A stretch of 64,000 bases of DNA. Origin: a bacterium (lineage in GTDB: Bacteria; Oederibacteriota; JAAXVQ01; JAUVAV01). How positions within the stretch are numbered: the first letter of the stretch is position 1; each line of letters opens with the position of its first letter. The stretch is taken from positions 1 through 64,000 of the forward strand of contig JAIORK010000045.1 of NCBI GenBank assembly GCA_021108215.1, written 5' to 3'. The position numbers and the translations under genes were made by a program. Of this stretch, positions 42,170-57,707 are shown piece after piece. The notes under the pieces were generated by a model. It ran no database searches and had not been told where the DNA came from. It saw only the letters and a list, made by a program, of their open reading frames with translations.

Positions 42170-43078
42170 CTAACCAACCAGCATGAATATCGCTATTAAA
42201 ATAATGGCGGATGCACCGACACATGAAAATGATGTGTACGCTATTTTAAAATGACCGGTACTTTTCCGGACTATTTTTAAAAACGTCCGGCGCGACACAA
42301 TGGAAAACAATGCAATCGACGATGTGGTGAGTCCCATGCCCAGCGATACCGCGATCATTGCCAGCAATCCCTGCACAACAATACCGGTTAAAATGGCATA
42401 GGACAGTATGATCGCGGCTCCCGGACAGGGTATCAGTCCGGTCACCAAGGACGTCATGACCAGGCTTTTTATATCCGGCACTTTCCGGCCGTCTTCTTCC
42501 ACCGCAAAAGACCAGTGTCTGTATTCATGAATACTATGGCCGATTAAATACACCCCAACGCCCATCAGTAATACTGCGCTAAGCACTTTGATATAGCCGC
42601 TGAACTGATCGAACGCGGTTAATCCACTGACTTTAAAAACAAAATAGAATATCATGACGAGCACGACTGCTGAAAATACATGACTAAACGTCAGTAAATT
42701 CCCCATCATAAATCCGTGAACAATTTTTCCCGGACGACTCAAAAAATATGAAATCGCAATCGACTTGCCATGACCGGGACCCAATGCATGAAAAATACCG
42801 TACAAAAAAGCGAACCACAAAAAAAGCCAAAACGCCTTCCCAAAGGGCTTTTCTTTCATCTGCTTGGCAAAACTGATCAGCTTTTGTTTGAATGTTTTTT
42901 GATGTTTTTGACTGAAAGTGACAATCGGCTGTATCCAGGGATTGACCTTGCCTTTTGTCTGGAGCATACTTTTTTTCTGCAAAGCGCCTTTTCCTGTAAA
43001 CGGATTGGTCGCATAGGCACAGGCTGCCAGACTTGCCGTCAGAAGAACCATCACCAGCAATATTACTATCTGCTTCAT
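42170..43078 (-). CDS. RcnA/NicO-family nickel/cobalt transporter
   Basis: A 302-residue membrane protein with an N-terminal signal-like helix, a basic soluble segment of about 60 residues, then about six helices. The family signature FHALGPGHGKSIAISYF (HxxxxGH-type metal site) is at about residue 98, and VTGLIPCPGAAII marks the second half. It is in an operon with a DUF1007 gene, an arrangement common for nickel or cobalt uptake in this family. A nickel role is supported by the hydrogenase genes of the window. It overlaps the DUF1007 gene by 4 bases. Confidence 0.88.
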   Translation of the reverse strand: MKQIVILLVMVLLTASLAACAYATNPFTGKGALQKKSMLQTKGKVNPWIQPIVTFSQKHQKTFKQKLISFAKQMKEKPFGKAFWLFLWFAFLYGIFHALGPGHGKSIAISYFLSRPGKIVHGFMMGNLLTFSHVFSAVVLVMIFYFVFKVSGLTAFDQFSGYIKVLSAVLLMGVGVYLIGHSIHEYRHWSFAVEEDGRKVPDIKSLVMTSLVTGLIPCPGAAIILSYAILTGIVVQGLLAMIAVSLGMGLTTSSIALFSIVSRRTFLKIVRKSTGHFKIAYTSFSCVGASAIILIAIFMLVG

Positions 43079-43665
43079 TTTTTATTCCTTAATTTTATTG
43101 TCAGTGTTTCAGGAAACCCATCCCGTCCCAGAAACACAAAATCTTTGTTACGGTACATTAACGTGGATACTTCAAAAGCATCCGGCGTACCTTGCAATGC
43201 CGGTTTTTCATCCAGCATCGTCACAGCTGTAAAATAACTGGTATCAAATATGGAAACCTCAATTTTTTTGTTCGCAACAGATGCGCTTACATGACAGGGT
43301 ACATAAAAATTATAAACCAGTTTGTCTTTTTCAATCGACGGCTTAAAACCCTTAACATATTCCGGAGCAAACGGCTCGCCATTAATCCGGATATAGGTAA
43401 AATAATCAAAATCTTTTAAATTATCAAATGCTTCTTCTTTGATCACCGCAGTTTCCGCTTCATCAAATTTCCCGTCTTGATTTTTATCCTGATCGTCAAT
43501 AACCGACGCGCTGAACATTTCATCAAAAACCCAGGTTTCCTCAATACCGGCCAAACCCTTTTCATCAAAATGAATTATTAAGGAAGATTCTATAAACAGA
43601 TGCGGATGAGCGGATAATCCGTTCACCAGCAGCATCAATAAAAACACCCAACACACAATCCGCAC
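43075..43665 (-). CDS. DUF1007-family periplasmic protein
   Basis: A 196-residue exported protein with a signal peptide directly followed by AHPHLFIESSL, the usual N-terminus of DUF1007. An EF-hand-like loop DKNQDGKFDEAE is at residues about 60-71. DUF1007 proteins usually accompany NicO-type transporters and may present metal ions to them; the terminal His pair could bind nickel. The start has no strong ribosome-binding site. Confidence 0.85.
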   Translation of the reverse strand: MRIVCWVFLLMLLVNGLSAHPHLFIESSLIIHFDEKGLAGIEETWVFDEMFSASVIDDQDKNQDGKFDEAETAVIKEEAFDNLKDFDYFTYIRINGEPFAPEYVKGFKPSIEKDKLVYNFYVPCHVSASVANKKIEVSIFDTSYFTAVTMLDEKPALQGTPDAFEVSTLMYRNKDFVFLGRDGFPETLTIKLRNKK

Positions 43666-44050: not shown

Positions 44051-46303
44051 TTAAAAATTCCACCGAATGCCGCCGATGATCAGGCGCGGCAACTGGTTAA
44101 TCTCGCGTTTATCCGAGTAATCATTTTTATACTGATAGGAATTGACATTGGCATTGCCAAATAAATTGGTAACCTGGATATAAGAACGCCAGTTTGCCAA
44201 TCCAAAAAACGGCATGCTCAGTTTAATATCGGTTGATAAATAATCCGGATAACGCTCGCTGTTATATTTTCCATACACGGGTGTCCATTCATTGATCGCT
44301 GCTTGGTATTCCCCGCTCACAATGGGGGTGTAGAGACTGCCGGATGAATATTTCTGGGTCAATGCCAGTTTCCACGTCTCAGTAAAATTATAATTTACCA
44401 CCAAATTCAGGGTATGCGGCTGTTCCGTGATAGGTGTATACCATTCATTGACCGGCGTGGCGCTCTCAGGCCGGCCCAGGGTCTCAGGATCGGTGCGGCC
44501 GTTGATGCGGCGTTGGGTCTTGATCCAGCTGTAACTCAGCCAGCCGTCCCACTTGCCGCCAATCTCACGTTTAAGCATCACATCCAGGCCGTAGGCATAA
44601 CCATCACCATTGTTGGTGTAATTGATGTCAGGATCAGCATCAGAGACAATCAATCCGCTGTAATCCTTGTAATAACCATCCACCACAATGGAAACATCTT
44701 CCATAATAGTAACCTTGGTTCCTGCAACATAGTGCAAGGCCTCTTCGGCCAGTAAATCCGGATTCCCCAGTGAATCATCAATCTGCTGTCCGGAGATCGG
44801 ATACTGGCTGTATAAACCGGTTGCAAGATTCACTTCCCACACCGGCAGCGGCTGCACTTTGAGCATGATGCGCGGGTTGGCAATATATTGTTCGTTGGGG
44901 GTGTAATACTGCACATTGATACTCGGATTGATATAGAACAGATCGCGCAAGAGCATGATCTCATCTTGTAGAAAAACTCCTGCAAAAGATACCCCGCCGG
45001 TCTGCATTCGTTCATCAATCGTATCCACATAGTAACTATTATTCCCGGTCGGCAACCGGACCGAATTTACAATGCTTACTTCACCCCAGGCAGGAAACAA
45101 ATATACGCCGGCCCGGACATGTTGACTTTCCGAAATATCCCATTGCCAGACATGCCGCAACTGAATGATCACCTGGTCTTTTTCCATATTAAACGGCGTG
45201 AAAGCATCCGTGAAACTATATTCCCCCTGATTATAATACGCCCCCAACAAGGTCAAGGCGGAAAGGGTCTCGGAAAATTTATAATCCGATGCCAGACTGA
45301 GATTAAAATTCACATCCCAAAACATAAATTCCCTTTCTCCCGTGTTTTCAGATGAATAGCCCTCTTCCGGGCTTCTTTTCATATGCATGCCTTCAAAGGA
45401 AAAAATCGAATTAAGTGTCACCATATTTTTGTCAAAAGGAAACGCCAATTTGAGCTGCCCATCATAAAAATAAGGAAAAACCAGGCTTTCATCCGCATAA
45501 AGCAGATTGATTAATAAATCATAATGAGTACGCCGCAATCCGAACATAAATGAACTGTCTGCCGGACCAAGCGAAGGCCCCTCAACAAAAACATCAAGCG
45601 TTGTCGCTGAGAGATCGATAAACCCCTTGAATTTCTCGGGATTGCCAATTTTATTTTTGACATTCAAAATCCCGGACATGGCTTGAGGCCACTGGGCGGA
45701 AAAACCACCGGATTGAAACTCAAGCTTTTCCACCATATTGGGGTTAAACACCGAAATCATCCCGCCCCACATGTAGGGATCAATAATCACCATATCATCC
45801 AGGATGGCCAACATCTCATCCGGGTCGCCGCCGCGGATAAACAGCAGACTCGACATCTCGTGATTGGTGGCAACACCGGGCAGCAGCTGCACCACCTTCA
45901 TGACATCCGGAAAAAGCGAGGCTGTAGTCTGATTGATGATCTCTGCACTTAAATCCTGTTTACTTATCTGGATCACAGCTTCATCCTGATCTGCTTTGAC
46001 CACAAACCGGCTCATTTCGTAAACATTAAAATCATACAACTCAATCCGGGTATTGCCGGAATCGAGTTCGAGTGTTTTCTTGCGGTATCCCGGTGCAGAT
46101 ACTTCCACCTGAGCAGTATCTGCCTCAAGTATGAAATAACCGGCTTGGTCGGTTGTGACCACAACGCCCTTGGCCCCGAAAATCTTCGCTCCGCCGATTG
46201 CCGCAGCAGTGCTCCCGTCAACCACCTGACCGGTATAGACCTGAGCCATAAGCGCATTGGGGATTAAAAACAGCATAAACATGATAACCGTTTTTTTCAA
46301 CAT
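44051..46303 (-). CDS. TonB-dependent receptor with carboxypeptidase-regulatory-like N-terminus
   Basis: A 750-residue outer-membrane protein: signal peptide (about 20 residues), a carboxypeptidase-regulatory-like domain (VYTGQVVDGSTAAAIGGAKI, residues 22-95), a plug domain with VMKVVQLLPGVATNHEMSS and LFIRGGDPDEMLAILDDMVI, then a barrel of about 22 strands ending in LIIGGIRWNF with a C-terminal Phe. It resembles receptors for metal chelates, cobamides or other large ligands. No TonB, ExbB or ExbD is in the window, and no riboswitch indicates the ligand. The nickel transporter operon downstream is suggestive but not proof. Confidence 0.88.
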   Translation of the reverse strand: MLKKTVIMFMLFLIPNALMAQVYTGQVVDGSTAAAIGGAKIFGAKGVVVTTDQAGYFILEADTAQVEVSAPGYRKKTLELDSGNTRIELYDFNVYEMSRFVVKADQDEAVIQISKQDLSAEIINQTTASLFPDVMKVVQLLPGVATNHEMSSLLFIRGGDPDEMLAILDDMVIIDPYMWGGMISVFNPNMVEKLEFQSGGFSAQWPQAMSGILNVKNKIGNPEKFKGFIDLSATTLDVFVEGPSLGPADSSFMFGLRRTHYDLLINLLYADESLVFPYFYDGQLKLAFPFDKNMVTLNSIFSFEGMHMKRSPEEGYSSENTGEREFMFWDVNFNLSLASDYKFSETLSALTLLGAYYNQGEYSFTDAFTPFNMEKDQVIIQLRHVWQWDISESQHVRAGVYLFPAWGEVSIVNSVRLPTGNNSYYVDTIDERMQTGGVSFAGVFLQDEIMLLRDLFYINPSINVQYYTPNEQYIANPRIMLKVQPLPVWEVNLATGLYSQYPISGQQIDDSLGNPDLLAEEALHYVAGTKVTIMEDVSIVVDGYYKDYSGLIVSDADPDINYTNNGDGYAYGLDVMLKREIGGKWDGWLSYSWIKTQRRINGRTDPETLGRPESATPVNEWYTPITEQPHTLNLVVNYNFTETWKLALTQKYSSGSLYTPIVSGEYQAAINEWTPVYGKYNSERYPDYLSTDIKLSMPFFGLANWRSYIQVTNLFGNANVNSYQYKNDYSDKREINQLPRLIIGGIRWNF

Positions 46304-46679: not shown

Positions 46680-47693
46680 TCATTCCACCTCAAGCCTGCC
46701 AAATCCGGTGGAACGGGCCAATTGACCCTCCGAATATATCAAACCTTCCACCATAGGTAAAGTTTCAATCATGTCCAGGGCAGCTTCCGGGCCCAGCAGA
46801 AAAACCACAATCGAGGGCATGGGATCAGGATAATTGGCAGGCATCACCAGAGTTGCGGCATTAATCGTCCGTACGGGATAGCCGCTTTTCGCATCAAGAA
46901 TATGGTGAAAACGCCGGCCCTCAACCTCATAGTGCCTGAAGTAGTCGCCGGAAGTAAGCACCAGGCTGTCTTCCAATTCCAAACGTGTGATAATCGCTGT
47001 GGGATCATCGGGATCGGAAATGCCGACTTTCCATTTAACCAATTCACCCCGTTGTCCGGTCAGGACATCCCCACCTAAATTGACCAGATACTTGTATTGG
47101 CCCGCTGCCTGAAAATAGTCCCGGAGTTTGCGAAGAATCTCGAGTTTGGCAATCCCGCCCACATCGAGTTGAACATCTGCGTGGCCCAGTCGAATGGTTT
47201 TGGATGATGGGTCCCACTGGATTTTATCCATGCCCAAATGCTCGGTCACCTGGCGAATCGCAGCTTGGCCCGGCGGCGTTGAGATGCGCGCACCTTTGAA
47301 TCCCCACAGCCGCCCCAGCGACCCGACGGTAATATCAAACCGGCTGCCGGACCGCTCATACCAGTAAAAAGCATGGTCCAGGGTTGCGCCCATTTCATCT
47401 GAAACACGCATTGGCTTTAAATACGCGCTGCGGTTGATACGGCTTAATTCACTGTTCTCCAGCCGATCGCTATAGATCAGTTCCAACCGACTGATCTCAG
47501 CAAACGCCCCCGCAATCATTTTTTTTGCCAGAGGCTGATTTTTCACGATCACAGTAATCGTGACCCGGGTACCGATTGCCTTGCGCGTCTCAGTCACTTT
47601 GATGCTGCGCGCTGCGAAAAATACTCCGGTGATCACCATCCCAGCCAACAGCAACAGCATCAATCTGCGGACTTTCATCTTCACCATCGCCAT
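46680..47693 (-). CDS. apbE: ApbE, FAD:protein FMN transferase
   Basis: ApbE covalently attaches FMN from FAD to a Thr of target proteins, outside the cytoplasmic membrane. About 337 residues from ATG 47693: an N-terminal membrane anchor (LMLLLLAGMVITGVFFAA), then the ApbE fold with FDITVGSLGRLWGF, DVGGIAKLEILRKL, LVNLGGDVLTGQ, LTSGDYFRHYE and HHILDAKSGYPV carrying the Mg/FAD-site residues. The usual GxxAKGY is replaced by GGIAKLE, a small deviation. It is the last gene of the hgcAB-linked operon and overlaps the upstream barrel gene. No clear flavinylation target (SGAT motif) is seen in the window. Confidence 0.9.
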   Translation of the reverse strand: MAMVKMKVRRLMLLLLAGMVITGVFFAARSIKVTETRKAIGTRVTITVIVKNQPLAKKMIAGAFAEISRLELIYSDRLENSELSRINRSAYLKPMRVSDEMGATLDHAFYWYERSGSRFDITVGSLGRLWGFKGARISTPPGQAAIRQVTEHLGMDKIQWDPSSKTIRLGHADVQLDVGGIAKLEILRKLRDYFQAAGQYKYLVNLGGDVLTGQRGELVKWKVGISDPDDPTAIITRLELEDSLVLTSGDYFRHYEVEGRRFHHILDAKSGYPVRTINAATLVMPANYPDPMPSIVVFLLGPEAALDMIETLPMVEGLIYSEGQLARSTGFGRLEVE

Positions 47694-48844
47694 ACTACCC
47701 CAACCTGATTCTGAATTTCTTTCCAATCAAAAAAACCATCAAACGTCTTAGACCACGTGTAATCCAGCACGAATGATTCTGTCATCATCCAGACCACCTT
47801 GATCCGGGAATATTCATAATGACCGTAAGCACCCCAGTCGCCCTGCGGTTGTTCGGCTGCCAGCAGTGCGCTGATCCAAATCACATCACACAAACTACTT
47901 TCCAGCTTGATCCCCGGCATCCAATAGTCTTGTTCCGGCGTATGCTTCACACCAAATTGGGGTGCAATAATAAACTGTTCAGAATAAAAATCCCAGGGGA
48001 AACGCAGCAAAAAAGATGTCTGCTTCCCGCTGTCCCGGGAATACATTCCCAGCAACGGCGCAAACCCCTCATCTTGATAACGTATCCGCGTCTGCCAGGA
48101 TAAAAACGGGAACAAAGGCATATCCAGGCCCGCCAAAACCGAGCCCGCCTGATTTCCGTAGGCAGCCTCTCCCTGCAAAAACCATTTATTTTCAAATTCC
48201 CAGTCACCGGACAGGCTGGAATAAAACCCCGGATCACTCATCGCACGGGATGCGTCCGCAAACGGCGTTGACGCATCATAGACCAACAGCGCGCACAATT
48301 TCCCGCCTGCCATGTGGATGGTTTCGCTATAGCCGGAAAAATATACCGCCTTTTTTTGAAATGCCGACGGTTCCATCAGTCCGAAATAAAACACCTCATG
48401 CTCCCAATGGAAAAAACGATTTACATACGCAACACCTGCCACCGGACTATCCGCAATCAGCAAACCACTCCCCCGGACACCGGGACGAAACCGGCCTGCC
48501 TGGAATTTATGGCTGCGATTTTGATAGATTACTTGCGGAATTACAATGGCATGAAACGAAGCCCCGGCATACTCAAGTACCCTGGCAAAAACACCCACCC
48601 CCAGCGTCCCTTTCAGGAATTCAAAATCATAGATTGCTTCGATTTCTGTAAAAGGTCCGGCTTCATCCATGGTGCGCGTCGCACTACTCACCGTATCATC
48701 CAGCCAGGGCCTAACCTTGGTTGGTTCAAAAAACTGTTGCTGTGATTGATACCCCTGCTTTACGCGGCCATCCCAGGCGCACCAGGTATTACCGGCATAA
48801 ATCAACAACACCCCCATGACCCCGCTGAATAATATCCCTTTCAT
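47681..48844 (-). CDS. Exported protein, probably an outer-membrane barrel
   Basis: A 387-residue exported protein with an N-terminal signal (MKGILFSGVMGVLLIYAGNTWCAW). The mature part is rich in aromatic residues and alternating strands typical of outer-membrane proteins, ending in NQVGVVWRW. No family is recognised. ATG at 48844 overlaps the upstream stop (ATGA), which rules out the frame extending to 49045. Its link to ApbE and hgcAB by overlap suggests a shared transcript. Confidence 0.7.
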   Translation of the reverse strand: MKGILFSGVMGVLLIYAGNTWCAWDGRVKQGYQSQQQFFEPTKVRPWLDDTVSSATRTMDEAGPFTEIEAIYDFEFLKGTLGVGVFARVLEYAGASFHAIVIPQVIYQNRSHKFQAGRFRPGVRGSGLLIADSPVAGVAYVNRFFHWEHEVFYFGLMEPSAFQKKAVYFSGYSETIHMAGGKLCALLVYDASTPFADASRAMSDPGFYSSLSGDWEFENKWFLQGEAAYGNQAGSVLAGLDMPLFPFLSWQTRIRYQDEGFAPLLGMYSRDSGKQTSFLLRFPWDFYSEQFIIAPQFGVKHTPEQDYWMPGIKLESSLCDVIWISALLAAEQPQGDWGAYGHYEYSRIKVVWMMTESFVLDYTWSKTFDGFFDWKEIQNQVGVVWRW

Positions 48845-49347
48845 GGCGTCGCCTGCCCCAGCGTATCCACACGATAAATATTCATTCGTACACGTTTTAT
48901 AAATGCCGGCCAGTGACCCGCCAAATTCCGCCGCAACAGTTCCAATACTTCCGGATACACATTTCCCAAAGGTCCGTCTTTTAGGATTGCGGAATACCGG
49001 TGGGCCTGCATGTCCGTTCGTTCCCCCCCGGGAAAAACCAGCCATTCCACCAGTTGACCCTGCTTGTCCAGTACCGCCCAGACATGGGTATCACCTTCCC
49101 CGGTTTCCCAACCTGAAAACACACGAAAAACCCGATGACGCCGGACAAGAATATAATAGGTTTGGGTTTTAAAAATAAAACGCAGGATATGGTCATCCGC
49201 AGGATAGGCCTGACGAATTTCCCTGGCATCCCTGTGTGCGGGTGTTTTCGATCCCACACAGGCACACTGACTATTTTGATAATCAACCGCACTGCTTGCA
49301 GGACCGGCGATGAAACAAGCGGTCAACAGAAAGAAAAATTTTCGCAT
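48841..49347 (-). CDS. Exported protein of unknown function
   Basis: A 168-residue protein with signal peptide MRKFFFLLTACFIAGPASSA. The mature part begins with a small Cys pair (QCACVG) and contains a compact alpha/beta segment with VWAVLDKQGQLVEWLVFPGG, loosely like FMN-binding (NqrC-like) domains but lacking the SGAT flavinylation motif. The start is uncertain: ATG 49347 has the proper signal peptide but no good ribosome-binding site; GTG 49395 is an alternative. It sits between hgcB and the barrel gene. Confidence 0.65.
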   Translation of the reverse strand: MRKFFFLLTACFIAGPASSAVDYQNSQCACVGSKTPAHRDAREIRQAYPADDHILRFIFKTQTYYILVRRHRVFRVFSGWETGEGDTHVWAVLDKQGQLVEWLVFPGGERTDMQAHRYSAILKDGPLGNVYPEVLELLRRNLAGHWPAFIKRVRMNIYRVDTLGQATP

Positions 49348-49413
49348 GACGTTTATTGTAACGTTGATCGATTCAGGAGAAAAGCTGTTTTTCACAATGG
49401 CGCCAACAATACC

Positions 49414-49722
49414 TCAGCAACATGAAGACGATTTTTTCCCGTCCTGGACACAGTCACAGGTCGGTTCGCTATTGGTTAAAAATCCTTTGATAACCCCTGA
49501 AGCACACCCCACCCCGGCACGGACCGTGATGGCTTGAGACGGACAATTACGCGCACAGGCGCCGCATTCCATGCAGTCATCTTTTTCCACCAAGACCGCT
49601 TTGCTCCCTTCCATGCGAAAGACGGCATGCGGACATACTTGAACGCACATTTTACAACCAATACATTTTTCACGATCATACTTAAGTGTGACAACATTTT
49701 TTAAGTAGTGATTCCCCAGCAC
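49414..49722 (-). CDS. hgcB: HgcB, ferredoxin partner for mercury methylation
   Basis: A 102-residue [4Fe-4S] protein with all HgcB features: two cluster motifs (CIGCKMCVQVCP, residues 20-31; CMECGACARNCP, residues 50-61), the extra Cys73 in VGCASG, and a C-terminal vicinal Cys pair (SSCC, residues 101-102). HgcB reduces the HgcA cobalt so it can take a methyl group, and its Cys residues are thought to bind and pass Hg(II). The GTG start at 49722 has AGGAGG six bases upstream. It lies 13 bases after hgcA. A typical ferredoxin lacks Cys73 and the terminal pair. Confidence 0.95.
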   Translation of the reverse strand: MLGNHYLKNVVTLKYDREKCIGCKMCVQVCPHAVFRMEGSKAVLVEKDDCMECGACARNCPSQAITVRAGVGCASGVIKGFLTNSEPTCDCVQDGKKSSSCC

Positions 49723-49735
49723 GGCTTCCTCCTGT

Positions 49736-50779
49736 TTAAGTAAATTGACCCACGGTCCATATCACCACACCAATCACAAATACGGCGATCTGAATCGGAA
49801 CGGCAATTTTCATCTCTTTGAGCACACCGGACAAAGATGTATAGGTTGATGTCCCGGTAAAATTCATAGCTGAAAAAGAGGCCAATGAAACCACCATCAG
49901 ACTCCAAGCCAAATCATCCCAGATCACCCAAGCGGCCATCGCCGGCACGGTCATTTTTAAAACACCATAGACCAGCACCCCCATCAGCGCCCCTTTGCCT
50001 GCAAAAGCGCGTCCGGGGATAAACGGCAACAGCAGCGGGGTTAAAATCGTCCCGGCGGCCAAGCCGGCAAACAAAAATACCGCCGCGATAATCCCGCCGG
50101 CCAGTGCGGCATTCAAAGAAAATGCATAACGATGGACACTGGACAGCAGCATAAAGTAAAGCAATGCCCAAAAAACATATTTCATGTGCCCAATGACTTC
50201 AACGGGAATTAAAACCGCCCGGTCAAATACCGTAAAATAGATACGCCGCATTTTTTCAGTTGTCTTAAATTCATTCTCAATAAATGCCGGAATATTTTTG
50301 GCGCGGACAGGTCCATAGATAACCTGAAACCCGCCGGCCTGCCTCACCTGATGGGCCGCCACACCCGGCGCACCCAACTGGGGCACAATTAATTTGCGAT
50401 GCGTCACAATTTCATCCAAGCGCACCGACTTGACGCGCGCAATCATTTCCCCGGTTCCGAACGTCCCTTTGCCGGCTGCACACCAAACATTGATCCCGTG
50501 GGTATCCAGCACCAAAATCCAGGCACTGATTTTTTTTAACCGGCTGCGCAATGCATCAAAGCTCATTTTGTAATTGGCTGACACAAATACCGGTGAATTC
50601 GCATCCGGCTGATTCAACCCATAGATCCCCGGTGCTACTGTATAATCCATACGCCCAATATCAAACCGCGCCAGAAATCCGCCCCAATGATCGGCTGCGC
50701 ACAAACCCGACGTTGTCAGCATCACCGGACCGGCCGCGGTTTCAATATTTCCAAACAGATACTTTTTCTTTTCAGACAT
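49736..50779 (-). CDS. hgcA: HgcA, corrinoid-dependent mercury methyltransferase
   Basis: HgcA carries a methylcobamide and donates its methyl group, as a carbanion, to Hg(II), giving methylmercury. The 347-residue protein has a cytoplasmic corrinoid domain with the diagnostic cap helix NVWCAAGK at residues 97-104 (Cys100 is the lower cobalt ligand), then five membrane helices (about 220-347). The related CO-dehydrogenase corrinoid protein lacks both the cap motif and the membrane part. ATG at 50779 has GGGGCGG upstream; the longer frame to 50914 lies within arsC. It overlaps arsC by 8 bases and precedes hgcB by 13. This indicates the organism can methylate mercury. Confidence 0.95.
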   Translation of the reverse strand: MSEKKKYLFGNIETAAGPVMLTTSGLCAADHWGGFLARFDIGRMDYTVAPGIYGLNQPDANSPVFVSANYKMSFDALRSRLKKISAWILVLDTHGINVWCAAGKGTFGTGEMIARVKSVRLDEIVTHRKLIVPQLGAPGVAAHQVRQAGGFQVIYGPVRAKNIPAFIENEFKTTEKMRRIYFTVFDRAVLIPVEVIGHMKYVFWALLYFMLLSSVHRYAFSLNAALAGGIIAAVFLFAGLAAGTILTPLLLPFIPGRAFAGKGALMGVLVYGVLKMTVPAMAAWVIWDDLAWSLMVVSLASFSAMNFTGTSTYTSLSGVLKEMKIAVPIQIAVFVIGVVIWTVGQFT

Positions 50780-51233
50780 GATCCGCCCCGCCCTTGACAA
50801 TGTTTTCCGACATGGCCTGGATAAATATTTTAATTTCATCGCGAACCCTGCGATAATGCACCAGCGCGTCTTCTTCCGAATCCGCATCGCGCGCCAATTG
50901 GGGAGGATCGTCAAAACCCTGATGAATCACCTTAGCTGAACCCGGAAAAACCGGACAATTTTCCCGGGCATGCCCGCATACCGTGATAACATAATCAAAC
51001 GCAACATCCAAAAGTATATTCACCAACTTTGACTGGTGCCGGGATATGTCGACACCCGCTTCAGCCATCACCTTCACCGCACGCGGATTGAGTCCATGCG
51101 TTTCAATCCCAGCTGAATAAACATCCAGATGATTATTTTTCAAAAAACGGGCCCAGCCCTCGGCCATCTGGCTGCGGCAGGAATTCCCCGTACACAAAAA
51201 AAGTATTTTAAATTTTTCTTTTACAGACGGCAT
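50772..51233 (-). CDS. arsC: Arsenate reductase, thioredoxin-coupled ArsC
   Basis: A 153-residue low-molecular-weight-phosphatase-fold protein. The catalytic loop is CTGNSCR (Cys14), and the two further Cys at 86 and 93 keep exactly the spacing of the thioredoxin-coupled ArsC family (Cys10, 82 and 89 in the best-known member). It reduces arsenate to arsenite. The stop overlaps hgcA, so arsC and hgcA are translationally coupled. No arsenite pump or ArsR is in the window. An AAAGAAAAA-rich stretch, not a strong ribosome site, precedes the start. Confidence 0.92.
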   Translation of the reverse strand: MPSVKEKFKILFLCTGNSCRSQMAEGWARFLKNNHLDVYSAGIETHGLNPRAVKVMAEAGVDISRHQSKLVNILLDVAFDYVITVCGHARENCPVFPGSAKVIHQGFDDPPQLARDADSEEDALVHYRRVRDEIKIFIQAMSENIVKGGADHV

Positions 51234-53807: not shown

Positions 53808-55100
53808 TTAAACTGTTCTATTCAGCGCCTGTTTTATATCATCAATAATATCTTCCACATTTTCAATCCCAATCGAAAGCCGGACAAGATCAGGTGTAAT
53901 CCCGCCTTCCTGCTGCTGTTGGGCAGTCAATTGAGAATGTGTGGTCGATGCCGGATGAATGGCCAGACTCTTGGCATCCCCGACATTGGCCAAATGAGAA
54001 ATCAATTCCAGCGACTCAATAAATTTCTGACCCTTGGTGCCGCCGCCTTTGATCCCAAATACTACCATACCGCCAAAACCCTTAGTTAAATACTTGGCAG
54101 CTGTCGCATGCCCCGGATCGGATTGCAGACCCGGATAGCGAACCCAGCTGACCTGATCATGCTTTGCCAGAAACTCGGCCACGGCCTGCGCATTTTCACA
54201 ATGCCGCTGCATCCGTAAAGGCAATGTCTCGATCCCCTGCAAAAACTGCCAGGCATTGTCCGGAGCAATACACGCCCCCAGATTGCGCAAGGGAACAAGA
54301 CGCATACGCAAAATAAAGGCCAGGGGCTGCAAAGGACCCAAATCCAGTCCAAACCGCAAATCATGATAACTTGGTTCCGGTTCGGTATAAAGGGAGAATT
54401 TTTTATCCGTCCAGTCAAATTTACCACTGTCCACAACAATACCGCCGATGCCGGTCCCGTGTCCGCCCAGCCATTTGGTCAGTGAATGAATCACAACATC
54501 TGCACCGTGTTCCAGCGGCCGGAGCAGATAAGGTGTGGCAAAAGTCGAATCCACCACCAGGGGCAAATGATGCTCCCGGGCCACAGCCGCGATAGCTGCA
54601 ATATCCGTCACTTCCAGCGCCGGATTACCGATGCTTTCAATAAATAACATCCGGGTGCGCTCATTGACAGCTGCTTTAAATTCTTCCGGCTTACCCGGAT
54701 CCACCAGATGGACCTTAATTCCAAATTTCGGCAAAATAGCGTCAAACATGGTGTAGGTCCCGCCATATAAATTGCGGGCCGCCACCACCTCATCCCCCTG
54801 CTGACATATATTAATCACCGTGTTAAAAACAGCAGCTGTGCCTGAAGCATGTGCCAGTGCTGCCGTACCGCCTTCCAACGCGGCAATTCTTTTTTCCAGC
54901 ACGTCCTGAGTGGGATTCATCAGGCGCGTGTAAATATTGCCCAACTCCTTCAACCCGAATAGATTGGCTGCATGCTCGGTATCACGAAAAACAAAACTGC
55001 TGGTCCGGTGCAGCGGAACCGCCCGGGAAAGTGTTACCGAATCCGGCACATGCCCGGCATGTAAAACCTGGGTCTCAAAACGATAGTTTTTATCACTCAT
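53808..55100 (-). CDS. metY: O-acetylhomoserine sulfhydrylase (MetY)
   Basis: A 430-residue PLP enzyme of the Cys/Met metabolism family. It makes homocysteine from O-acetylhomoserine and sulfide. Visible motifs are the N-terminal FETQVLHAGHVPDSVTLSRA, NPTQDVLEKRIAALEGG, VVDSTFATPYLLRPLEHGAD and the PLP Lys in HSLTKWLGGHG. The long insertion and DWTDKKFSLYTEPEPSYHD region mark MetY rather than MetB/MetZ. ATG at 55100 is chosen for AAGGAG upstream. It follows cysK and is the last gene of the Rrf2-headed operon. Confidence 0.93.
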   Translation of the reverse strand: MSDKNYRFETQVLHAGHVPDSVTLSRAVPLHRTSSFVFRDTEHAANLFGLKELGNIYTRLMNPTQDVLEKRIAALEGGTAALAHASGTAAVFNTVINICQQGDEVVAARNLYGGTYTMFDAILPKFGIKVHLVDPGKPEEFKAAVNERTRMLFIESIGNPALEVTDIAAIAAVAREHHLPLVVDSTFATPYLLRPLEHGADVVIHSLTKWLGGHGTGIGGIVVDSGKFDWTDKKFSLYTEPEPSYHDLRFGLDLGPLQPLAFILRMRLVPLRNLGACIAPDNAWQFLQGIETLPLRMQRHCENAQAVAEFLAKHDQVSWVRYPGLQSDPGHATAAKYLTKGFGGMVVFGIKGGGTKGQKFIESLELISHLANVGDAKSLAIHPASTTHSQLTAQQQQEGGITPDLVRLSIGIENVEDIIDDIKQALNRTV

Positions 55101-55205
55101 TTTCCAAATCTCCTTTACTAGTGTTTTTGCTTTCAATTCTCTGCTGTCAAAATTATTTGCTAGTCGCTCTAAGTGCTGTATTTTTAAAGTCAGACAAAAA
55201 TATTT

Positions 55206-56126
55206 TTAATTAAAAACCCAGGTAGAAAGATAGCGTTCACCTGTGTCACAACCAATTGTCACAATTGTCTTGCCGGCATTTTCCGGGCGGCGTGCCGTCA
55301 CCAGCGCAGCATGAACATTGGCCCCGGTAGAAATCCCTGCTAAGATACCTTCCTCCCGTGCCAACCGCCTGGCTGCTTCACCGGCCTCTTCATCCACCAC
55401 AGTGATCACCTCATCAATAATATCACGATTAAGCACGTCCGGAATAAACCCGGCACCGATCCCTTGAATTTTATGCGGTCCCGGTTTCCCGCCGGATAAA
55501 ACCGGCGAGGTGGCGGGTTCCACGGCCACCACATTCACTTCCGGTTTACGTGATTTTAAAACCTCACCGACCCCGGTAATAGTTCCGCCGGTTCCCACAC
55601 CTGCCACAAAAATATCCACTTTGCCATCCGTATCATCCCATATCTCCACTGCGGTTGTTTTGCGATGGATCTCAGGATTAGCCGAATTTTTAAATTGCTG
55701 GGGTATGTGGGCCCCGGGCATCTCGGCCGCGAGTTTTTCCGCCCGGGAAATCGCCCCGCGCATACCTTCTGCGCCGGGTGTGAGAATAATCTCCGCACCC
55801 AGGGCATTCAATATCTGCCTCCGTTCCATGCTCATCGTATCCGGCATGGTCAATATCAAGCGATATCCCTTAACCGCACAAACCATGGCCAGGCCAATAC
55901 CCGTATTCCCGCTGGTGGGTTCAATAATAACCCCACCCGGGCGCAATACGCCTTGCTGCTCCGCTGCAGCAATCATTGACAGCGTAATACGGTCCTTCAC
56001 ACTGGCACCGGGGTTAAACGACTCTAACTTCACCAAAACCTCAGCCTTCAAATCCTTGGCCATATTTTTCAAGCGTACCAAAGGTGTCTTCCCGACTAAA
56101 TCCAAAATACTATTACTGATTTTCAT
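55206..56126 (-). CDS. cysK: Cysteine synthase (CysK)
   Basis: A 306-residue O-acetylserine sulfhydrylase that makes cysteine from O-acetylserine and sulfide. It shows [10 protein letters not shown] with the PLP Lys, the [14 protein letters not shown] substrate loop, [14 protein letters not shown], and [11 protein letters not shown] near the C-terminus. ATG at 56126 gives AAGAG a good distance; ATG 56132 is an alternative. It lies 52 bases after the Rrf2 regulator and 105 bases before metY. Confidence 0.95.
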
Positions 56127-56177
56127 GTTCATCACTCTTTCTTGTTTTTGTGGATATGATCCCTTTATTGATTTTTT

Positions 56178-56624
56178 TCAGATTGAATAATTCCCTTCAA
56201 CATTTTCCTTTTCTTTGCGAAACATGATTTGCATCTGGGCCAGCGTCATATTCTCAAAAACAACTTTCACCTCTTGATTAACCTTCTCCCAAATCGACCG
56301 GGTCGCACAAAAAGACAACCGGTTGCAATTCTCATACTGATTTTGCAGACAGTCCAATAGTTGTACCGGACCTTCGGCTGCGTCGAGAACATCTGCCAGA
56401 GAAATATCCTTGGGTTGTCGGGCCAATTGAAATCCGCCTTTAGCGCCACGATAGCTATTCACAATCCCTGCCTTGCGCAGCGCCCCAAAAATATGAATCA
56501 AATACCTCTCAGGAATCGCCTGCCGGTTGGCAATATACGATAAAAAAATCGGTTTTCCCGAGTTATTTTCCGCCATTTCCAGCAACGCTCTCAGTGCATA
56601 CCGCCCTTTGGTAGAAACCTTCAT
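56178..56624 (-). CDS. Rrf2-family regulator (CymR/IscR-like)
   Basis: A 148-residue winged-helix regulator: MKVSTKGRYALRALLEMA, then the recognition helix (IPERYLIHIFGALRKAGIVNSYRGAKGGFQLAR). Three Cys in the C-terminal half (DCLQNQYENCNRLSFC) might bind an Fe-S cluster as in IscR. Its link to cysK and metY argues for a CymR-like role in sulfur amino-acid control. A palindrome over its promoter indicates autoregulation. Confidence 0.92.
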   Translation of the reverse strand: MKVSTKGRYALRALLEMAENNSGKPIFLSYIANRQAIPERYLIHIFGALRKAGIVNSYRGAKGGFQLARQPKDISLADVLDAAEGPVQLLDCLQNQYENCNRLSFCATRSIWEKVNQEVKVVFENMTLAQMQIMFRKEKENVEGNYSI

Positions 56625-56639
56625 TATTCCAACACCTTT

Positions 56640-56686
56640 CTAATCATTACTAAGATGATGGTATTGGTAATGATTAGAAAGGTCAA
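56640..56686 (-). promoter_or_regulatory. Promoter with Rrf2 operator
   Basis: A 38-base imperfect palindrome (56640-56677) has arms CTAATCATTACTAA and TTGGTAATGATTAG, matching at 13 of 14 positions. On the minus strand TTGACC (56681-56686), a 17-base spacer and TACCAT (56658-56663) form the promoter, so the palindrome covers the spacer, the -10 box and the start region. It is 16 bases upstream of the Rrf2 gene. Confidence 0.8.
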
Positions 56687-56799
56687 TAAAAAAATTTTTT
56701 TTTTAATCTTTTTCGTATTCCGGTGGCCGGCGCCCTATGGAATTGATTTTTCCCTTTTTTTCCTATAGGATACTTCCAACCTAACCAAAGGAGTCTTTC

Positions 56800-57105
56800 A
56801 TGTCTGATCCGGATTACGAACTCGTCTACTCTGACCTTCCCCCAAAAGCAACCCCGGGTAAAAAGGCACCAGGGTTGGGAAAAGCGCTTTTACGCATCGA
56901 AAAAAAAGGACGTGGCGGAAAATCAGTGACCATCATTGAAAGGTTGGCACTATCAGACGACGCGCTAAAAAAGGTATGCAAAGAGTTCAAACAAAAATGC
57001 GGCACCGGCGGCACGGTCAAAGATCACCATATTGAAATCCAGGGGGATTTCCGGGAAAAACTCCGGCCCCTGCTGGTTTTGAAAGGTTACAAAGTCTCCG
57101 GCTGA
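56800..57105 (+). CDS. yciH: SUI1/eIF1-like translation factor (YciH family)
   Basis: A 101-residue protein of the SUI1 family, which acts in start-codon selection in eukaryotes and archaea. The motif KGRGGKSVTIIERL (residues about 36-49), CGTGGTVKDHHIEIQGD and a C-terminal LLVLKGYKVSG match bacterial YciH. AAAGGAG precedes the start. It converges with msrB, four bases apart. Confidence 0.92.
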   Translation: MSDPDYELVYSDLPPKATPGKKAPGLGKALLRIEKKGRGGKSVTIIERLALSDDALKKVCKEFKQKCGTGGTVKDHHIEIQGDFREKLRPLLVLKGYKVSG

Positions 57106-57109
57106 TTTT

Positions 57110-57640
57110 TTACTTCGCTACAAACTTCAAAGATTCCGAATTGATGCAGTAGCGTTTTCCCGTGGGTTTAGGCCCATCATCAAAAACATGCCCCAGATGG
57201 GCTTGACAGCGACTGCATAATACTTCGGTGCGCGGAGCACCCAATGTACGATCCGGGGCGAGTGAGATATTCGCCATAGCAATCGCCTGCCAAAAACTGG
57301 GCCAGCCGGTCCCGGAATTATATTTGGTCGTTGAACTAAACAGGTCATTACCGCAGGCAACACACTGGTAAATACCACTTTCATGATGGTTCCAGAACGC
57401 ACCGCCAAATGCCGGTTCCGTTCCCTTCAAACGAATAATCTTATATTGCTCAGGGGTCAACGCCGCTTTCCATTGTGCCTCGGTTTTTTCAACTTTGTCT
57501 GTCATGACGTACCCCTTCTTCGCTTCTGAAAACACCTTCATTTGCTGATTCCCCACGGCATCCGCCGCGAATCCGCTGCCAACTGCCATACCGCCCAGCA
57601 TCCACACCGCTAAAAAAAGAGCCGAATTGATTGTTTTCAT
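57110..57640 (-). CDS. msrB: Exported peptide-methionine (R)-S-oxide reductase (MsrB)
   Basis: A 176-residue protein with a signal peptide (about 27 residues, ending in GFAADA). The MsrB domain has two zinc CxxC pairs (CVACG and CSRCQ), [21 protein letters not shown] and a resolving pattern with the catalytic Cys in RYCINS. It repairs oxidised Met in the periplasm. ATG at 57640 has AGGAGG upstream; the TTG at 57646 is not needed. Confidence 0.93.
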
Positions 57641-57707
57641 ATGCAACCTCCTAAAATGTTCACATCCTTGTTTTACGCTCCCGGACGCTTTTTAGCAATC
57701 ATTTATT

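Follow-up and report, generated by a model that had tools for sequence, protein, structure and literature searches.

A complete-looking hgcAB gene pair overlapped by an arsC-like gene in the draft genome of an uncultured bacterium

Introduction

The neurotoxin methylmercury is formed almost exclusively by carriers of the gene pair hgcAB, and therefore the list of carriers matters for predicting the sites at which it is formed. Some published carriers are poor methylators, and we know of no native substrate of HgcAB. In Pseudodesulfovibrio mercurii ND132, HgcA works as a cobalamin methyltransferase in which a thiolate ligates the cobalt, and the methyl donor for the pair was found in 2024 to be S-adenosylmethionine (SAM), not methyl-THF (PMC11588087). 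For the hgcAB of ND132, PMC10349881 describes an ArsR-like regulator in a passage that cites the original work, and an association of hgcAB with arsenic genes, arsC included, has already been published (PMC7438021; PMC10349881). Horizontal transfer and loss have also been inferred for hgcAB generally (PMC7438021).

Two other kinds of protein resemble HgcA. The gamma subunit of CFeSP, the Wood-Ljungdahl corrinoid protein of CODH/ACS (2h9a, 4djd), has the Rossmann-like corrinoid domain in common with HgcA over about 125 residues, but has no cap-helix cysteine, membrane domain or HgcB partner. The HgcAB-like fusion family (NF043039) combines an HgcA-like corrinoid domain and a ferredoxin, both of which the pair described here also has, in one chain.

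The stretch of DNA analysed here (the window) comprises 64,000 nucleotides of a draft genome, in which an earlier note had recognized an hgcAB pair at positions 49414–50779 from the sequence. With a probability of about 0.9, we regard the pair as a genuine, complete-looking and intact hgcAB that would methylate mercury by analogy with the complex of P. mercurii.

The hgcAB Gene Pair

The pair was recovered at the same coordinates on the minus strand, and both genes are intact. The gene of the mercury-methylation corrinoid protein, hgcA (49736–50779, minus strand), runs from an ATG at 50779 to a TAA at 49736 and encodes 347 amino acids. A longer listed open reading frame from 50914 adds only codons that overlap the arsC-like gene, and the profile match of the protein begins at residue 20 counted from the ATG. 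The gene hgcB (49414–49722, minus strand) follows in tandem, with 13 nt between the hgcA stop and the hgcB start, and runs from a GTG at 49722, preceded by an AGGAGG ribosome-binding site, to a TGA at 49414, encoding a dicluster ferredoxin of 102 amino acids. In the profile searches that the earlier note had proposed, HgcA scored 415.7 bits against NCBIfam NF040863 (profile positions 2–324 of 325; curated equivalog cut-off, 275 bits), and HgcB scored 131 bits against NF040864 (curated equivalog cut-off, 99 bits).

The cap helix of HgcA is GINVWCAAGKGTF, which carries the signature G(I/V)NVWCAAGK as GINVWCAAGK. The motif NVWCAAGK, residues 97–104 (50468–50491, minus strand), contains Cys100, the codon of which is located at 50480–50482, in agreement with the earlier reading. 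As seen in the alignment of 51 HgcA proteins, N97, V98, W99, C100, A102, G103 and K104 are invariant, and Cys100 is kept in 98 other HgcA-like proteins. NVWCA occurs once in the six frames of the 64-kb window, and therefore it is not a chance motif. Failure of the cap helix to align to HgcA, which the earlier note had named first as an outcome that would speak against the assignment, did not occur, since the alignment is strongly supported.

The AlphaFold2 model of HgcA, calculated with 51 homologues, has a mean pLDDT of 90.6 and consists of a Rossmann-like corrinoid domain followed by five long helices. The helices, predicted at residues 191–213, 222–249, 259–277, 286–305 and 316–346, form the C-terminal membrane domain (residues 191–346; 49739–50209, minus strand), so that the predicted structure bears out the five membrane helices noticed before. 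The top match to the model in the PDB, over the whole length, is the HgcA of ND132 in the deposited HgcAB model 9a0b, with 44% identity and an E value of 1.5e-21.

HgcB contains two [4Fe-4S] motifs of the form CxxCxxCxxxCP, spanning Cys20–Cys30 (49633–49665, minus strand) and Cys50–Cys60 (49543–49575, minus strand), as well as Cys73 in VGCASG (49504–49506, minus strand) and the C-terminal pair Cys101–Cys102 (49417–49422, minus strand), all as previously read. In an alignment of about 95 HgcB proteins, nearly all have GC at the position of Cys73. The cysteines of the protein are located at positions 20, 23, 26, 30, 50, 53, 56, 60, 73, 89, 91, 101 and 102, and the published numbering of the ND132 HgcB corresponds to the first nine of these, that is, the eight cluster cysteines and Cys73 (PMC7305189). 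The two systems thus have in common the domain order, the cap-helix cysteine and the five membrane helices of HgcA, together with the cluster cysteines and Cys73 of HgcB at identical numbers and its C-terminal cysteine pair. The window's HgcB differs in having two further cysteines in the tail, Cys89 and Cys91, and Thr60 and Thr66, which contact B12 in the HgcA of ND132, are replaced by Ser in the window's HgcA when a simple offset is applied, which is a conservative change.

The Adjoining arsC-like Gene

A gene for an arsC-like, thioredoxin-type arsenate reductase (LMWPc) is located at 50772–51233 on the minus strand, and its stop overlaps the start of hgcA by 8 nt (ATGTCTGA), whereas for ND132 it is the above ArsR-like regulator that is described in the citing passage. 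The encoded protein scored 159.7 bits against TIGR02691, just below the curated cut-off of 174.3, and keeps the P-loop CX5R (Cys14-X5-Arg20) and the redox pair Cys86/Cys93. The arsC-like gene and hgcA are likely to be on one transcript.

This arrangement bears on an alternative in which the pair is a genuine hgcAB whose role in the cell relates, in this lineage, to arsenic or another thiophilic element, with mercury methylation as a side reaction; the arsC product would reduce arsenate, and HgcAB would methylate the product or respond to it. In support of this alternative, the overlapping gene is the only convincing arsC of the genome, the second match reaching 52 bits, and searches of the genome for the arsenite exporters Acr3 and ArsB gave no match. 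Further support comes from a survey of hgcAB loci covering 84 upstream and 85 downstream neighbours, in which ArsR-type regulators stand immediately upstream in 10 of 84 cases. MarR-type regulators were found upstream in 16 of 84 cases, SBF proteins in four upstream and two downstream positions, and ArsP in two upstream positions; SBF is the Pfam family that we take to include Acr3. LMWPc proteins adjoin hgcAB in four upstream and two downstream positions, representing about four independent lineages (the window, family f12, Clostridia and Ignavibacteriae), compared with a rough expectation of about 0.17 among the 169 neighbours, a value that rests on our own assumed rate of 3 LMWPc genes per 3000.

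However, the nearest relative, CSMAG_1793, has hgcAB without an adjoining arsC, and the link between arsC and hgcAB is patchy, so that it could reflect shared metal-stress regulation only. Furthermore, mercury methylation by HgcAB has been demonstrated, whereas no arsenic methylation by HgcAB was found in the literature examined. Considering both sides, we regard an arsenic-related primary function as unlikely. A more specific form, in which hgcAB belongs to an arsenic-linked operon and an orphan arsC is translationally coupled to an HgcAB that would natively methylate or dispose of a reduced metalloid, with mercury methylation incidental, appears slightly less probable again. The arsenic-linked reading is unproven, and a surprise at this locus could come only from it. 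The arsC overlap itself is a neat instance of the published association of hgcAB with arsenic genes, not a new phenomenon, and it provides a concrete locus for the suspected arsenic connection of HgcAB.

Relation to HgcAB-like and Other Corrinoid Proteins

The pair could also be an HgcAB-like paralogue without mercury-methylating activity, for example a member of the fusion family. The window's HgcA does match the fusion profile NF043039, but with 185 bits against a cut-off of 285, while the genes are separate and their products score well above the cut-offs of the HgcA and HgcB profiles. The cap motif of the fusion protein L099 reads NVWCAAADG instead of NVWCAAGK, and in this protein the counterparts of Cys73 and of the C-terminal cysteine pair of the window's HgcB are absent or altered. 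The scores, the residues and the fold rule out the fusion family as the identity of the pair, and a paralogue of this kind is in general very improbable. L099 itself, from genome G045, scored 468 bits against NF043039.

That the first protein might be the CODH/ACS corrinoid subunit or another CFeSP-like methyl carrier, as the corrinoid-binding domain common to both (PF03599, 47 bits) and the CFeSP matches in the PDB would allow, has a negligible chance and is ruled out as an identity by scores, residues and fold, because the CFeSP gamma model NF003195 gives 76 bits, below its cut-off of 306, against 415 bits for HgcA, the aligned position of the cap-helix cysteine in 2h9a is Thr, the CODH/ACS protein ranks after 9a0b with only about 125–130 residues aligned and not the full-length fold, and the window's HgcA has a membrane domain and an adjoining HgcB in a genome without another CFeSP subunit. 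Grouping with the CODH corrinoid family was the second outcome that the earlier note had set against its assignment, and the identification of HgcA is supported because neither outcome occurred.

A separate observation concerns a divergent, unfused HgcA/HgcB-like pair, L100, in a genome of the host's phylum (HgcA-like open reading frame at G011:C124:4687-5619). Both of its proteins score below the cut-offs, with 165.6 of 275 bits and 78 of 99 bits, although they keep NVWCSSGKG, the TGCLY cysteine and the CC tail. This pair may represent a separate HgcAB-like branch.

Host and Descent of hgcA

The host is an uncultured bacterium represented by a draft genome of 3.56 Mb (G000; 97.4% complete, 0.7% contamination). 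It is placed in Candidatus Firestonebacteria at the family level, as far as the name of a database record is right, because it has its GTDB family in common with genome G005, which matches the record L001 (Candidatus Firestonebacteria bacterium CSMAG_1793) at each of 3987 bases. This group was already named among the hgcA-positive candidate phyla by McDaniel et al. in 2020 (PMC7438021), and no further publications on hgcA in Candidatus Firestonebacteria were found in the literature searched. The earlier suggestion that the range of methylating organisms may be extended is thus weak: a genus is added, with many relatives inside the phylum, but the extension stays within a phylum already known to carry hgcA. 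The result is a well-supported hgcAB carrier in a poorly known phylum.

HgcA proteins scoring over the cut-off were found in 16 of the 45 phylum genomes examined, the host included, and in only two of the six genomes of the host's family, G000 and G005. The phylum genome G020 contains two such proteins (G020:C84:1580-2542, L092; G020:C85:4483-5460, L108). The HgcA and HgcB of CSMAG_1793 are 62.6% and 64.1% identical to those of the window; apart from the missing arsC, the window's other flanking genes were not found at that locus, and no conserved hgcAB neighbourhood is common to the two relatives.

In the phylogenetic tree, which was calculated from HgcA sequences without a CFeSP outgroup and with the long rows L099 and L100 left out, the window's protein falls inside HgcA next to L001, and the two are sisters with bootstrap/SH-aLRT values of 100/99. 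They adjoin L002 and a group from Omnitrophota and Desantisbacteria (95/94 for the set of six rows), and the HgcA of the neighbouring family f2 lies elsewhere in the tree. A single HgcA clade for the phylum was rejected (AU test, p=0.012), whereas a single clade for the order was not rejected (p=0.13). The RpoB proteins of the phylum's genomes form one supported group (SH-aLRT 99, G009 set aside). The non-monophyly of HgcA in the phylum fits what repeated transfer would give and agrees with the transfer and loss inferred for hgcAB generally. The gene pair is common in the phylum yet not inherited as one lineage.

The composition of hgcA (GC 0.497, GC3 0.543) is similar to that of the neighbouring genes, and therefore any acquisition into the host was probably not recent. 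We considered that the host might have gained hgcAB by transfer only recently and set this aside, as it has no compositional sign and the nearest HgcA comes from the host's own family.

Proposed Mechanism and Methyl Donor

Following the purified ND132 complex, the membrane-anchored HgcA would hold a corrinoid, with Cys100 in the cap helix as the ligand of the cobalt, and HgcB would pass electrons through its two [4Fe-4S] clusters to give Co(I). SAM would methylate the cobalt of HgcA, and the methyl group would then go from the corrinoid to Hg(II), where Cys73 and the C-terminal cysteine pair of HgcB would handle Hg(II) or CH3Hg+. By the same analogy, we infer that the pair is expressed and supplied with corrinoid, that it acts on mercury, and that this organism forms methylmercury.

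HgcA is the only PF03599 protein over the cut-off in G000, and therefore no CFeSP is evident in the genome. Only two pterin-binding proteins were found in G000, a DHPS-like protein and a MetH of 806 amino acids, and no AcsE-type methyltransferase was found there. The missing CFeSP is consistent with SAM as the donor and with an hgcAB that works without a Wood-Ljungdahl methyl carrier, although MetH may also be the source. A carrier genome without the Wood-Ljungdahl corrinoid protein is thus consistent with the newer view of the methyl donor.

Other Genes near the Pair

Downstream of hgcB, the region 46680–49395 (minus strand) encodes a secreted protein without a family assignment, a protein of 454 amino acids that has no family match and is beta-barrel-like, and an ApbE flavin transferase, beyond which a TonB-receptor-like gene lies at 44051–46303. 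These genes possibly form an extracytosolic flavin-based redox set. A NicO-type nickel/cobalt transporter stands beside a DUF1007 protein at 42170–43665 (minus strand), a combination that is typical of metal uptake or efflux. On the other side of the pair, a sulfur-amino-acid cluster at 53808–57646 (minus strand) contains an Rrf2 regulator, a cysteine-synthase-like PALP protein and a Cys/Met PLP enzyme, and a gene for SelR (methionine sulfoxide reductase) is located near it. Outside the window, about 19 kb from hgcAB, a metal efflux permease of the SO_0444 type is encoded at G000:C45:70302-71582 (L145:8303-9583); it scored 306.5 bits against a cut-off of 300, also matches PF03773, and ends in a CopZ-like metal-binding domain with the motif GMTCxxC.
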